This document shows positions 9,526-21,923 of a stretch of 28,252 nucleotides of DNA, in pieces; the stretch's first letter is position 1; every line of letters starts with the position of its first letter. Below the pieces are notes generated by a model. It searched no databases, was not told the DNA's origin, and saw nothing but the letters and a program-made list of their open reading frames with translations. Both the position numbers and the translations under genes were made by a program. The stretch comes from a virus, in the IMG/VR virus record IMGVR_UViG_3300009499_000025, positions 1 through 28,252 of that record. One strand, written 5' to 3'.

Positions 9526-9869
9526 GCGCAGGTAAATACGATTTTGTGATCGAAGCCGGCACGGATTGGGGTCCTACGCTTTGGCTTGAAGAAGAAGACG
9601 AGACACCCAAGGATCTGACCGACTACACAGCCATGATGCACATACGCGAGAGATTTGAGGGTCCGCTGATCAAGGAGCTCAAGATCGGATCGGGTATAAC
9701 AATTACTGGAGGGGAGGGGAAGATCCAGCTCGCCCTGACCGTAACTGAGACATCGGCATTGCAGATCACCAACGGTGTGTACGATCTGGAATTAAGTAGT
9801 CCGGCCCCTGTTAAAGTTACTCGTCTTTTGGAGGGCGACATAATTGTTACGCCGGAGGTAACAAGGTGA
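9522..9869 (+). CDS. small virion protein (tail/baseplate-type beta domain)
   Basis: 115 residues from ATG 9522, which overlaps the previous stop and is preceded by GGGAGGAATC. An in-frame start at 9453 lies inside the previous gene and is unlikely. The pattern (DFVIEAGTDWGPTLWL, then DLTDYTAMMHIRE, GKIQLALTVTETSAL, YDLELSS, ending VTPEVTR) matches small all-beta phage proteins found in tail modules. These have two short sandwiches and probably link fibres to the tail. No enzymatic motif. The stop overlaps HNH copy 2 by four bases. Confidence 0.6.
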   Translation: MSAGKYDFVIEAGTDWGPTLWLEEEDETPKDLTDYTAMMHIRERFEGPLIKELKIGSGITITGGEGKIQLALTVTETSALQITNGVYDLELSSPAPVKVTRLLEGDIIVTPEVTR

Positions 9870-10327
9870 CTCTTAAAGAGCGTTTTTGGAACAAGGTAGA
9901 TATTCGCGGCATTGATGAATGTTGGGAATGGTTAGGAGGTAAAACAGGGAGCGGGTATGGGGCAATCAGACGAGGAAGAAAGCGCGAGGGAATGGAACTC
10001 GCCCATAGAGCTGCATGGACGTTGGTTAATGGCGACATCCCAGACAAAATGCAAGTTTGCCATCATTGTGATAACAAGGGATGCGTTAACCCTCTGCATC
10101 TATTCTTGGGAACGCAGGCAGATAATGTGTCAGACATGGTGAGAAAAAGGCGACAGAACAAGGGGGAAAATCACGGTAGGGCAAAACTGACTAGAGATCA
10201 AGTTATAGCAATCCGAGAAGAATACGCGGGTGGTGGTATCTCGCAAAGGAAGCTAGCAGCTAGATACCATGTAGACCGAGCACTTATATGGGGCATTTTG
10301 AGTAGAAAGTTGTGGAGGCACGTCTAA
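9866..10327 (+). CDS. HNH homing endonuclease (copy 2 of 3)
   Basis: 153 residues starting at GTG 9866, which overlaps the upstream stop as GTGA. It has the HNH_3 core (CHHCDNKGCVNPLHLFLGT, about residues 67-85) and the same C-terminal helix-turn-helix (KLTRDQVIAIREEY) as copies 1 and 3. It lies between a small virion gene and the tail fibre gene, separating two genes that would otherwise be adjacent. The tail fibre start GTG 10329 follows one base after its stop. Like the others it is probably a mobile homing gene that borrows translation from the upstream gene. Confidence 0.9.
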   Translation: MTLKERFWNKVDIRGIDECWEWLGGKTGSGYGAIRRGRKREGMELAHRAAWTLVNGDIPDKMQVCHHCDNKGCVNPLHLFLGTQADNVSDMVRKRRQNKGENHGRAKLTRDQVIAIREEYAGGGISQRKLAARYHVDRALIWGILSRKLWRHV

Positions 10328-14359: not shown

Positions 14360-15322
14360 TCACTGCTCCAGTTCCGCAATCAACCGGTCGATGTCTTCCC
14401 GTATAGCGCGCAGCCTTTGTGCAACGAATGGTCTCCCCTCTGGAGCGAGCTTGCCGATGTCAACTGTCTTTCGGAACGCGCCTATGGTTTCGCGGAATGC
14501 GCTTGCTACTTCGAGAAAAGCCGCAACCTCAGGCGCTTCTCGCCAGTCAGCATCAGCCCGTGGCCTCTTCTCGCGATACATAACATCATGCGCGCCATAC
14601 TTCTTGGCTCGAGCTTGGATGCGCTCAGGATCGTGTAGTGTTGGGCTGTATTCCCACTCAAGCACCTTCTTCTTAGCTTGCTCACTGGGTGCAGCTTTCA
14701 CAGTCTCGGCCACCCGGCGTGCTTGTTGAGCCGTTAGACCTTCTTTAGCAGCCTTCTCAATGACCGCTTCGCGCTCTGGTTGGGATAGGCCAGTTTGTCT
14801 TACCTCAATTATATGACTACTTGTGACCTTTCCTTCAGGAGCATGTGTGCCGCCACCGCGCCCCAGTGGCGCGCCCCTCTCAATAAGTTTGTGAATCTTC
14901 GGGCTTTCCCTCAGAAGTGACATGTAATTCGATATGGTTTTCTCAGGCAATATGCCCATTCGTGCCATTTCTTTTTGCGACCAGCCAGTTTCTTCCTGTA
15001 TTGCAAAGAGGGTTCTTGCTATGTCAACAGGATTCATATCCTCGCGCTGAACGTTCTCAATCAAGGCTTGTACTAAAACGCCGGTATCGTCCACGCCTTC
15101 GACAATAGCTTCTGTCTCCTTGATACCAGCTCGCCGCATTGCCTTGACGCGTCGGTGGCCATAGACGATCTCATATTTCCCGTTCCCGTCTGGCCTGACT
15201 TTGATGGGTACAATCAACCCATGCTCCTTGATCGATTGGGCCAACTGCTCTAGTGCTTCTTCATCCCAAGTCTTTCTGACTGCAAGGGGCGATGGCTTGA
15301 TTTGCTTAAGTGAGATTTTCAT
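14360..15322 (-). CDS. ParB/Spo0J-like DNA-binding protein
   Basis: 320 residues. The N-terminal ParB domain has IKPSPLAVRKTWD, LAQSIKEHGLIVPIKVRP, the GHRRVKAMRRAG motif (residues 55-66, equivalent to the CTP/DNA-binding box GERR) and LIENVQREDMNPVD (87-100). A helix-turn-helix follows at about 100-140 (GWSQKEMARMGILPEKTISNYM). The C-terminal half is helical and charged. AAAGGAGAACC precedes ATG 15322. ParB proteins bind a palindromic centromere and spread or slide on DNA. No ParA gene is visible here, so it may regulate replication or transcription rather than partition. Phage ParB-like proteins of this kind are known. Confidence 0.88.
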   Translation of the reverse strand: MKISLKQIKPSPLAVRKTWDEEALEQLAQSIKEHGLIVPIKVRPDGNGKYEIVYGHRRVKAMRRAGIKETEAIVEGVDDTGVLVQALIENVQREDMNPVDIARTLFAIQEETGWSQKEMARMGILPEKTISNYMSLLRESPKIHKLIERGAPLGRGGGTHAPEGKVTSSHIIEVRQTGLSQPEREAVIEKAAKEGLTAQQARRVAETVKAAPSEQAKKKVLEWEYSPTLHDPERIQARAKKYGAHDVMYREKRPRADADWREAPEVAAFLEVASAFRETIGAFRKTVDIGKLAPEGRPFVAQRLRAIREDIDRLIAELEQ

Positions 15323-15813: not shown

Positions 15814-16626
15814 CTATATCGGCAATTCACCCTGCCCACTATCAACCATGTGCTGCCGGATGATCGCCTGCGCCTCTTTGACTGCCATAGGATCAGGAGC
15901 GTAGGCGTCACCACTGTTTTTTGTTGGCTTGAGCCAGTCGAGCAGGGCCAGGATTTCTCCGTTTCTAAGATTGGATCCACTATCAACATCAAATAGATAA
16001 ACAAGCACCGATCGACGCTTTTCAGTAGATGCATTGTCGCCGGCAAAACAAGTCTCGAGCATACCCATGGCGAGACCTTGCTGATCAGGGCTGGCTTGTC
16101 GAGAGTCGTATTTCTTTGCTTTCATCGCCAGAGCTTTCCGCAAGTATTCTGGATCCAATGGACGAACAACACCATTTTCTCCATTTTCTCCACCGTTGGA
16201 GGGCGACGTTCTGTGGAGGTCGAGCGCCAGGCCGAGAAGAGAGGCGGCTTTCTTTAGCCCATCACTGGAAGCAGCCTTGAATCTGGCTCCAATAGTTATG
16301 CCTTGTTTCATCTTGGCGGATCCGAATTGCATCTTGACAATGTCACCTTTGGGGGAATGCACGGTAAGCCTTCCTAATACGCAGACCTCATTGGGATCTT
16401 GATCGTTAGGAAGCAACATTGCCTCCTTGATCTCCCAAGACCAATTCCACTTGAACGCCAGGTTGAGCTGCTCGGTGACCCAGCCATGCTCGACATAAGA
16501 TAGTGTCTTACCCCTTGGCCCTTCACGCGTCAAGATGGCGTATTCGGGTGTGGTTTGGGTAAGTATTGCCTGCTGTGCTTCGTTGAACGCGGGCGTTGTA
16601 ACCATCAAATCATTATCGTCGGGCAT
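15814..16626 (-). CDS. Rad52-like single-strand annealing protein
   Basis: 270 residues. Residues about 40-137 carry the Rad52/Rad22 core pattern: YVEHGWVTEQLNLAFKWNW, a beta segment VCVLGRLTVHSPKGD, then ARFKAASSDGLKKAASLLGL and ALDLH. Proteins of this family bind single strands and anneal them, usually as rings, in phage recombination and end-processing. The C-terminal part is more variable and ends in an acidic SGQGELPI tail that could contact a single-strand-binding protein. It starts two bases after the previous stop in the leftward operon. A partner exonuclease gene was not seen. RusA (25028) is encoded far away on the other strand. Confidence 0.78.
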   Translation of the reverse strand: MPDDNDLMVTTPAFNEAQQAILTQTTPEYAILTREGPRGKTLSYVEHGWVTEQLNLAFKWNWSWEIKEAMLLPNDQDPNEVCVLGRLTVHSPKGDIVKMQFGSAKMKQGITIGARFKAASSDGLKKAASLLGLALDLHRTSPSNGGENGENGVVRPLDPEYLRKALAMKAKKYDSRQASPDQQGLAMGMLETCFAGDNASTEKRRSVLVYLFDVDSGSNLRNGEILALLDWLKPTKNSGDAYAPDPMAVKEAQAIIRQHMVDSGQGELPI

Positions 16627-17008: not shown

Positions 17009-17263
17009 ATGAATGGAGGGAAGATGGAAGTTATGACACCTGGGACACCGAAATTACGGGTCCCCGAACTGCTCAAAAAGAAAGGCATGACTGCATCTGA
17101 CTTGATGAGAAAGTCTGGTCTTTCTTGGCCTACTGCCCAAGGCTTAGCTGCCGGCAAGCAAATGAACATCACACTTGATACCATCAATAAGCTTTGTGAT
17201 GTTCTGGAAGTTAGCGTTGGGGAGCTTGTCGTTATTGAGCCTAAAGAGGTGGAGAGCGGCTAA
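17009..17263 (+). CDS. Cro/CI-type (XRE) transcriptional regulator
   Basis: 84 residues if started at ATG 17009; in-frame ATGs at 17024 and 17033 follow GGAGGG (17015-17020). The XRE helix-turn-helix spans about residues 16-76: VPELLKKKGMTASDLMRKSGLSWPTAQ, then TLDTINKLCDVLEVSVGELV, the usual five-helix pattern. There is no C-terminal oligomerisation or cleavage domain, so it is a short Cro- or YozG-like protein. Divergent promoters with inverted repeats lie directly upstream, fitting a lysogeny switch. A terminator follows its stop. With start 17009 the mRNA would be leaderless. Confidence 0.82.
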   Translation: MNGGKMEVMTPGTPKLRVPELLKKKGMTASDLMRKSGLSWPTAQGLAAGKQMNITLDTINKLCDVLEVSVGELVVIEPKEVESG

Positions 17264-19961: not shown

Positions 19962-20045
19962 ATCGGCTTTGATCGGGGTCGGAGGAACGCCCTCCCGACT
20001 CCGGAGGTTTGACCCCCTCCGGCTCCGGTCAGAGCCGATTTTATT
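19962..20045 (+). other. long hairpin in the initiator leader, possible attenuator
   Basis: Bases 19962-19985 pair with 20016-20039 over 24 positions in which every departure from Watson-Crick pairing is a G-U pair. The 30-base loop contains CCTCC (19991-19995) and GGAGG (20003-20007), which can pair with each other or compete with the GGAGG (19981-19985) and CCTCC (20016-20020) of the stem. TTTTATT follows the stem. The initiator ribosome site AAAGGAG is at 20047-20053. Confidence 0.6.
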
Positions 20046-20057
20046 GAAAGGAGAGAA

Positions 20058-20828
20058 ATGAGCAAGCTAACAGACGAATGGGGCTTTTTCACCCCTATGC
20101 CCGAATGTGTCATCGAGAGGACAGCAGAGATTGGAAGCGATGCTGTCTTTTTATTTATGTACTTCCGGTATCGCACGAATAAGGAACGTGGCTGTGCCTT
20201 TCCGAAATACGAGACGATGTGCGAAGACATCGGATGGGGCAGGCGCAGGATCAAGATAGCAATAGATAAGTTGGAGGAGTTCGAATATTTGAGGAGACGC
20301 AAGAGATTCGGGAAATCGACGGAATATTTCTTGACGCAACCGCCAGATGTGGGGGGTACTACAATCGAGGAAACCACCAGTATTTCCACTACGGAAATAC
20401 TGCATGAAAATGACGGCACAGTATTTCCGCAGCGCGACTCCAGTATTTCCACTACGGAACCATCAGTATTTCCACCCACGGTGAAGGACTCAAGACTCAG
20501 TTTAACCAAGACTGAGTTTAACCAGACTGAGTTAAAAGATTCGCCTTCTTTTTCTCAAGACAACTGGGTTAAAGCTCTTTTGGTCATCGATCTTGATTAC
20601 TACCCCGGCCGAGCTCGTCACTTTGAAAGAGACTGGAGCGGCACAGGATATGTTGGCCGGCAAGATAGGAAATTCGTCGTTAGCTGTCGTGATGAGGAAC
20701 AGCAATTATGGCTAAAGGACCGTGGCAAGAAGATAGCCGAGAATATTTTGGTCGGGATCCTGGGCGAGAGGGTTGAAGTTGAGTTTGTGGTGGCCGAAGG
20801 TCCCGGCACCTTGCGGGTGGAAATATGA
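20058..20828 (+). CDS. replication initiator (winged helix plus DnaA-domain-I-like C-terminus)
   Basis: 256 residues. Residues about 1-95 form a winged-helix domain (SDAVFLFMYFRYRTNK, PKYETMCEDIGWGRRRIKIAIDKLEEFEYLRRRK). Residues about 97-166 are a Ser/Thr-rich linker with repeated short motifs (SISTTE, FNQTE). Residues about 168-246 resemble DnaA domain I: WVKALLVIDLD, FERDW, FVVSCRDEEQQLWLKDRGKKIAENIL, VEVEFVV. The linker-coding DNA holds iteron-like repeats (20378-20473, 20494-20537), as in lambda O where the origin lies within the initiator gene. AAAGGAG precedes ATG 20058. The C-terminal domain may recruit host helicase-loading proteins. The stop overlaps the next start by four bases. 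Confidence 0.75.
   Translation: MSKLTDEWGFFTPMPECVIERTAEIGSDAVFLFMYFRYRTNKERGCAFPKYETMCEDIGWGRRRIKIAIDKLEEFEYLRRRKRFGKSTEYFLTQPPDVGGTTIEETTSISTTEILHENDGTVFPQRDSSISTTEPSVFPPTVKDSRLSLTKTEFNQTELKDSPSFSQDNWVKALLVIDLDYYPGRARHFERDWSGTGYVGRQDRKFVVSCRDEEQQLWLKDRGKKIAENILVGILGERVEVEFVVAEGPGTLRVEI
20378..20473 (+). repeat. iteron-like repeats, candidate origin
   Basis: CAGTATTTCC occurs four times in direct orientation (20378, 20419, 20441, 20464). It occurs once inverted (GGAAATACTG, 20393-20402), forming with the first copy a perfect ten-base inverted repeat around ACTAC. Spacings of 41, 22 and 23 bases are close to whole helical turns. They lie within the initiator linker codons. Confidence 0.75.
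20494..20537 (+). repeat. tandem AT-rich repeats, candidate unwinding element
   Basis: Three tandem units begin GACTCAGTTTAACCAA (20494-20509), GACTGAGTTTAACCA (20510-20524) and GACTGAGTTAAAA (20525-20537), a period of 15-16 bases. They follow the iteron-like repeats by 20 bases and precede a pyrimidine-rich run (20541-20557), the usual order of binding sites and duplex-unwinding element. Confidence 0.7.
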
Positions 20829-21469
20829 AAAGGGCTATGGCGCTAAGCATCGCTCAGAACCTGGTCGAGGAGATTTCCCCGGTCTGCGACAGGATCCAGA
20901 TTGCCGGCAGCTTGCGCAGAGAGAAGCACGAGGTCAAGGATATCGAGATCGTAGCCATCCCTGCGATGGGGGAGACGCATGTAATCGATATGTTCGGGAA
21001 TATTCTCGAATCGAAGAAGTGCAGCACCTTGGATACGTTGCTCGACTTCAACCTGGGTCAGGAAGCTTTTGCCTGGGAGAAAGACGAGGAGCTTAAGCGG
21101 TGGGGTCCTCGATATAAACGCCTGCGTCATCGCGAGACCGGGATCTGCTGTGATTTATTTTTCACGACGGAGCGGGGGTGGGGAGGCTGCCTGGCGATCA
21201 GGACCGGACCCTGGGACTTCAGCAGGGCGCTAGTGACATTGGCTCGTCGGCAGGGGAAGCACGTGGCTGACGGATATCTCATACATCATCATCCGAAGCC
21301 GAAATGCGGCTGCTCCAAAGGCGCCGGCTGTCCGCTGATCGTCCCTACGCCGGAAGAAGCAGACTTCTTCGCCGAGATCGATCTGCCGTGGATCGAACCA
21401 GTGGAAAGAGCGGCGTCATGGGTGTGGGAGAAAGCGAAAAAGAGGATTTTTCGAGAGGTCGAAGGGTGA
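20825..21469 (+). CDS. DNA polymerase X-like nucleotidyltransferase
   Basis: 214 residues, ATGA-coupled to the initiator. Residues 26-44 show the Pol-beta signature AGSLRREKHEVKDIEIV, with Gly28-Ser29, Arg31-Arg32 and acidic Asp39/Glu41, where the family usually has Asp-x-Asp. The third metal ligand is probably Asp110 (CCDLFF). TGPWDFSRAL (127-136) and PTPEEADFFAEIDLPWIEP (174-192) match the family's later motifs. The N-terminal helix-hairpin-helix part of full PolX enzymes is missing. A Cys-rich insertion (CGCSKGAGC, 161-169) may bind zinc. It may fill gaps or add nucleotides during phage replication. Confidence 0.78.
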   Translation: MKRAMALSIAQNLVEEISPVCDRIQIAGSLRREKHEVKDIEIVAIPAMGETHVIDMFGNILESKKCSTLDTLLDFNLGQEAFAWEKDEELKRWGPRYKRLRHRETGICCDLFFTTERGWGGCLAIRTGPWDFSRALVTLARRQGKHVADGYLIHHHPKPKCGCSKGAGCPLIVPTPEEADFFAEIDLPWIEPVERAASWVWEKAKKRIFREVEG

Positions 21470-21473
21470 ACTA

Positions 21474-21923
21474 GTGGATATAAAAAGATTTTGGGACAAA
21501 GTTAATATAAGGGGAGATGATGAATGTTGGCCGTGGATGGCGGCCGTGAGCGGCAACGGTTATGGCCATATTAGATTTGAAGGAAAGGACTATTGTTCTC
21601 ACCGCATTGCTTATGAACTTACGACTGGCCCTATTCCAGAGGGTTTATGCTGTTTGCATAAGTGCGACAATAAATTGTGTATTAATCCAGCCCATTTATT
21701 TTTGGGAACCAGGGCGGACAACCAAAAAGATATGGCCAATAAAGGTAGGGCTGCAAAAGGCGAACGTCACGGGGCATCAAAGTTGACCAAGGATCAGGTT
21801 ATATCAATTCGTCAGGAATACGCTCGAGACGGTACTAGCCATAGAAAATTAGCTGCAAGATATGACGTCGATCAGGCCAATATAAATCTAATTGTCAATC
21901 GCAAAACATGGAAACATATATAG
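21474..21923 (+). CDS. HNH homing endonuclease (copy 3 of 3)
   Basis: 149 residues from GTG 21474, four bases after the polymerase-X-like stop. It has the HNH_3 core (HKCDNKLCINPAHLFLGT, about residues 63-80) and C-terminal helix-turn-helix (KLTKDQVISIRQEY) shared with copies 1 and 2. Its codons are clearly more AT-rich than the upstream gene. The same run TTATTTTTGGGAAC appears at the core of copy 1, consistent with recent common descent. It probably spread by homing within the genome or between related phages. Confidence 0.9.
   Translation: MDIKRFWDKVNIRGDDECWPWMAAVSGNGYGHIRFEGKDYCSHRIAYELTTGPIPEGLCCLHKCDNKLCINPAHLFLGTRADNQKDMANKGRAAKGERHGASKLTKDQVISIRQEYARDGTSHRKLAARYDVDQANINLIVNRKTWKHI

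Follow-up and report, generated by a model that had tools for sequence, protein, structure and literature searches.

A candidate replication origin formed by iterons within the gene of a phage initiator with a winged helix and a DnaA domain I-like tail

Uncultured phages, like many prophages and plasmids, have origins that are not known. A cluster of short repeats inside a putative initiator gene of such a phage raises the question of whether the gene contains the site at which its own product starts replication. We analyzed this locus in a stretch of 28,252 bp from an uncultured bacterial virus (positions 1-28,252 of the IMG/VR record IMGVR_UViG_3300009499_000025), hereafter referred to as the window. 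It carries a gene set of a temperate tailed phage, including an integrase, a major head protein, terminase subunits, and a Cro/CI-type regulator, together with recombination and partition genes encoding Rad52-like, RusA-like, and ParB-like proteins. No helicase or loader family was recognized among the window genes searched, in which small ORFs were partly covered, and the record may be incomplete.

Several other features of the window were recorded. Three small proteins that resemble one another (2029-2508, 9866-10327, and 21474-21923; similarity judged by eye), with HNH-like motifs and a tail conserved at the C-terminus, lie between unrelated genes, which suggests several homing-type insertions in one phage. 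The Rad52-like gene (15814-16626) shows a mild excess of short repeats (10 pairs versus 1.8 expected), partly due to a tandem of CCATTTTCT at 16172-16192. Upstream of the initiator gene, an uninterrupted GC-rich stem of 24 bp followed by TTTT (19962-20039, z -3.1) resembles a terminator and ends just 5' of the Shine-Dalgarno sequence; it could act as a terminator, an attenuator, or a leader controlling the initiator. The gene that overlaps the 3' end of the initiator gene (20825-21469) matches the thumb domain of DNA polymerase beta, and no relatives of it were found among viral contigs.

The initiator gene is directly preceded by a Shine-Dalgarno-like AGGAG and its product has a winged helix, a linker, and a C-terminal module (Table 1). 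The N-terminal region scored 34.1 bits for HTH_36 (PF13730), above the cut-off of 25 (2.3e-8), and the protein matched phrog_270, annotated as replication initiation protein, at 4.6e-9. Nearly all of its PHROG matches were replication initiators or DnaD-like loaders. A Pfam scan at E values up to 1 returned HTH_36 only, with no match to Phage_rep_O (PF04492) and no direct match to DnaA_N (PF11638), and the weak O-like PHROG matches (phrog_391) spanned only the winged helix. A single-sequence AlphaFold model had a pLDDT of 36, too poor for a fold search.

The nature of the C-terminus was established by profile comparison. Residues 165-254 matched, by tblastn, true DnaA genes of Chloroflexota genomes, one of which (L126) was identified as DnaA by Pfam and another (L127) by eye. 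Four DnaA domain I sequences, the window protein not among them, were used to build a profile, which recovered the window protein among about 8,100 ORFs at 3.5e-9 (hmmsearch) and aligned with it at 97.7% in hhalign, as compared with at most 2.1% for shuffled controls; a joint profile including the window protein matched solved DnaA domain I chains. As judged from these profiles, the C-terminus of the initiator is a DnaA domain I, and the description of the protein in an earlier note on this DNA, as a winged-helix and DnaA-I-like initiator, was thus borne out by the HTH_36, phrog_270, and profile matches. The same combination with HTH_36 was found in L149 (by Pfam), in L157 and L150 (by profile), and more weakly in L139 and L180 (by profile), and therefore the architecture is not unique. 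Among these genes, spaced repeats were present in L139 and L180 and absent from L149, L150, and L157. A likeness to DnaA domain I seen by eye at the C-terminus of L134 was rejected, as hhalign gave only 3.9%.

In E. coli, and shown only there, DnaA domain I contacts DnaB via Glu21 and Phe46 (PMC5448010). The Phe46 column, a conserved Phe in the DnaA chains of the PDB, appears to hold a Glu in the window protein in an alignment made by eye, and the partner of the tail may therefore be other than DnaB. In four Chloroflexota genes (L129, L130, L132, and L133), a DnaA domain I is N-terminal and six repeats spaced 22-24 bp apart, read as DADGS/DANGS, lie near the C-terminal third; as far as the sequences indicate, these genes form a second initiator architecture with an apparent internal origin.

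Table 1. Positions of the repeats, of the initiator gene, and of the two other DNA-binding protein genes discussed in the text (window coordinates).
Feature	Position	Strand	Remarks
Initiator gene	20058..20828	+	ORF, 256 aa: winged helix, linker, DnaA domain I (by profile)
HTH_36 winged-helix DNA-binding domain codons	20130..20291	+	Residues 25-78; Pfam PF13730
Iteron 1, CAGTATTTCC	20378..20387	+	Left arm of perfect 25-bp palindrome; read as SIS
Inverted iteron	20393..20402	-	Right palindrome arm; codons read as EIL (within TEILH)
Iteron 2, CAGTATTTCC	20419..20428	+	Read as VFP
Iteron 3, CAGTATTTCC	20441..20450	+	Read as SIS
Iteron 4, CAGTATTTCC	20464..20473	+	Read as VFP
Three tandem 16-mers, consensus CAAGACTGAGTTTAAC	20491..20537	+	Putative site of unwinding, or a further binding array
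Pyrimidine run, CCTTCTTTTTCTC	20544..20556	+	13 nt
DnaA domain I-like module	20550..20822	+	Residues about 165-255; tblastn, hmmsearch, hhalign
ParB-like protein	14360-15322		ParB_N + HTH_ParB
Cro/CI-type repressor gene	17009-17263

The 10-mer CAGTATTTCC occurs five times in the window, and all five exact copies, four direct and one inverted, fall within 96 bp (20378-20473) of the initiator gene. From one direct iteron to the next, the starts are separated by 41, 22, and 23 bp. The inverted copy starts 15 bp after the start of iteron 1, with which it forms a perfect 10-5-10 palindrome, CAGTATTTCC-ACTAC-GGAAATACTG (20378-20402). Iterons 1 and 3 share the same 20-nt context (20440-20459 for iteron 3), an exact duplication over a distance of 63 bp. 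Nowhere else in the window did a 9-mer occur at least three times inside 200 bp, and local shuffles (n = 200) gave at most three copies. The four direct and one inverted copies placed by the earlier note in the codons of the initiator linker were therefore confirmed at their coordinates and are unique in the window.

These repeats are selected as DNA. Among 3,000 synonymous recodings of the initiator gene, no 10-mer exceeded 3 copies, as compared with the 5 observed, and nearby exact 9-mer pairs numbered 39 versus 1.6-1.8 expected, an excess that none of 21 other window genes approaches. Moreover, CAGTATTTCC is coded in two sense frames plus one antisense, being read twice as SIS, twice as VFP, and as EIL when inverted, and selection therefore acts on the DNA and not on the peptide. 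On the basis of this frame test, the readings of the array as a neutral duplication or as a peptide repeat were rejected.

Searches of viral contigs, of phage records, and of species genomes gave no close homologue of the initiator, and conservation was therefore tested only in distant relatives. A search with the terminases yielded related phages, none with a close initiator, and the palindrome GTATTTCCN5GGAAATAC was present in 16 viral contigs, none of which had a repeat cluster like that of the window. The codon test was thus run on other initiators with HTH_36 or DnaA_N, in homologous pairs that were hand-picked from redundancy groups and form six groups. In five of them, codons in the repeats were kept at synonymous sites in 90 of 100 cases, versus 719 of 1119 outside (stratified p 1.4e-7). 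The group of L148 and L152 showed the opposite (5/16 in repeats versus 34/81 outside), and the test over all six groups gave p 5.2e-6. The earlier note had proposed to check whether homologues keep the DNA of the repeats; in the form in which this check was run, on distant HTH_36/DnaA_N pairs, they did so in five of the six groups.

The recurrence of such repeats was analyzed in HTH_36 genes from Chloroflexota, Desulfobacterota, Acidobacteriota, and terminase-related phages, 60 of which were left after removal of redundancy. Repeats exceeded all 300 synonymous shuffles in 22 of these 60 independent genes, the other 38 failing this strict test, and in 20 of 249 control ORFs (Fisher p 1.8e-7), for which the number of shuffles was slightly different (200). 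Lambda O, taken as a positive control, passed with 22 pairs versus 1.3 expected. Three of the strongest hits among the controls (L049, L040, and L118) look like initiators, and some other control hits are low-complexity genes. In the HTH_36 genes, the sequence of the repeats varies from gene to gene, and the repeats lie mostly 3' of the winged helix and in mixed reading frames. The spacing of direct 9-mer pairs peaked at 21-24 bp, found in 9, 13, 15, and 7 genes, respectively, versus 1.6-2.6 expected for each, with a second mode near 42-46 bp. A finder of 10-mer families allowing one mismatch missed the degenerate iterons of lambda and returned spurious families in GC-rich genes, and the spacing is therefore based on the histogram of exact 9-mer pairs. 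A long low-complexity array was also observed in L019 (positions 437-848); one strand encodes tandem repeats of the SVRDSVRASV type, and the opposite strand encodes DTIPDTSPDT.

Downstream of the iterons, the earlier note had described three tandem AT-rich repeats followed by a pyrimidine run. The repeats themselves are real: the 16-mers, starting at 20491, 20507, and 20522 and read in two frames, rank first among the tandem arrays of the window, with a Tandem Repeats Finder score of 72, but their A+T content is only about 60%, which corrects the qualification as AT-rich. The pyrimidine run was likewise present, but past the end given for the feature. Within the initiator gene, no 60-bp stretch is less stable than 20482-20541, but this segment reaches only the 97th percentile of the window, in which 24 other places are at least as unstable. 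In relatives with repeat clusters, the 60 nt downstream of the clusters were slightly A+T-richer than the gene average in 18 of 26 genes (p 0.02). A change in cumulative GC skew, also expected by the earlier note at the candidate origin, was absent, the skew tracking gene direction. An unwinding element at 20480-20560 is thus only moderately supported, with 16-mers that are only moderately unstable, and is the weakest part of the reading as an origin; alternatively, the 16-mers may form another binding array.

We consider it probable (about 85%) that the repeats belong to an origin of the lambda/SPP1/pSK41 type lying inside the initiator gene, with the DnaA domain I as the module contacting the host. 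The N-terminal winged helix would bind the CAGTATTTCC sites, copies of which are about two helical turns apart, so that several initiators could be placed on one face of the DNA, the inverted pair taking two initiator subunits. The resulting nucleoprotein complex might then strain the adjacent region 20480-20560 and lead to its opening, while the flexible linker encoded by the iterons would be tolerated as a spacer. We infer that the C-terminal DnaA domain I would contact the initiation machinery of the host, by which the host DnaB helicase could be loaded.

Binding of a winged helix to the same palindromic repeats could serve to regulate transcription, and the window also encodes a Cro/CI-type repressor; the array might accordingly be an internal operator or silencer acting on transcription or on the level of the initiator, with the true origin elsewhere. 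Iteron arrays often both regulate and initiate replication. However, all five exact copies of CAGTATTTCC are intragenic and none is found at any promoter, no other repeat cluster in the window is fit to be the alternative origin, and the genes with which such repeats are associated across the family are initiators. An operator in place of an origin is thus unlikely. The presence of a protein with ParB_N and HTH_ParB domains raises the alternative that the repeats are a partition centromere for this ParB-like protein, and centromere sites are often palindromic and sometimes intragenic. The repeats are nevertheless 5 kb away from its gene and within the initiator, a location that recurs in HTH_36 genes of many genomes, and no ParA was recognized among the window genes searched, a subset of the ORFs. 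We regard this explanation as very unlikely.

It could finally be argued that the array is a neutral tandem duplication or a repetitive linker with no role at the DNA level, as the exact 20-nt duplicate and the frequent expansion of disordered linkers would allow. The frame test and the tests on synonymous sites largely refute this reading, since one 10-mer is used in two sense frames and one antisense, the array never arises on synonymous recoding, and relatives keep synonymous sites within their repeats; the spacing mode common to unrelated repeats also speaks against it, and we give it hardly any credence.

If the repeats are indeed an origin, HTH_36-DnaA-I genes may be portable replicons of a single gene, in which about 770 bp would hold the origin together with the protein that binds it and with a part copied from the chromosomal initiator of the host. 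The DnaA domain I would then capture helicase loading by the host without a phage loader, and the sequence of the repeats would vary freely among HTH_36 initiators, co-evolving with the winged helix, while the spacing of 21-24 bp stays fixed. We put this forward tentatively, at somewhat less than even odds. If origins lie in the linker of HTH_36 initiators and repeat tests based on synonymous shuffles can locate them from sequence, the origin and its cognate initiator could be predicted together for many elements. The DnaA-I tail would allow one to test whether a phage has borrowed a module of the host initiator instead of using a helicase loader.

Origins within initiator genes are a kind already known, since lambdoid phages, SPP1, and pSK41-type plasmids have them: they have been described in lambda and Stx phages (PMC7466680), in gene 38 of SPP1 as oriL (PMC6316719), and in rep of pSK41 (PMC5703833). 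As in the lambda origin, the iterons of the window lie in the middle of the gene, 20-24 bp apart in lambda and each with dyad symmetry, and are followed by an AT-richer stretch (PMC7466680); the annotated iterons of lambda start 20, 24, and 23 bp apart, as compared with 41, 22, and 23 bp in the window. The N-terminal half of lambda O also binds DNA. The window differs from lambda in its unrelated iteron sequence, in its weaker AT-rich tract, and in a protein that combines HTH_36 with a DnaA-I tail, and no lambda P-like loader was recognized. The lambda-type order with unrelated repeats put forward by the earlier note is thus supported, the same layout being found in distant HTH_36 genes with a lambda-like spacing.

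In SPP1, a phage initiator binds direct repeats in its own gene beside an AT-rich unwinding element (PMC6316719), but this phage has its own loader (gp39), its own helicase (gp40), and a second origin, none of which was seen in the window. The Rep proteins of pSK41 and pPR9 (RepA_N) bind four boxes in the center of the rep gene by an N-terminal winged helix, which in pPR9 belongs to pfam13730, the same Pfam domain as in the window initiator; Rep proteins of the pSK41 type can do without the linker that the origin encodes, and their C-terminus is specific to the host (PMC5703833). These are plasmid proteins, with a control by antisense RNA in the leader, whose C-terminus binds the DnaG primase, whereas the window is from a phage and encodes a DnaA domain I at this place. 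In a search of the open-access literature, outside of which most subscription papers lie, no paper was found that describes either a phage gene combining a DnaA-I tail with iterons or the recurrence and spacing of repeats in HTH_36 genes. Compared with the known systems, the new elements are thus a phage gene in which iterons and a DnaA domain I-like tail occur together, and the fact that spaced repeats recur across HTH_36 genes of three phyla.
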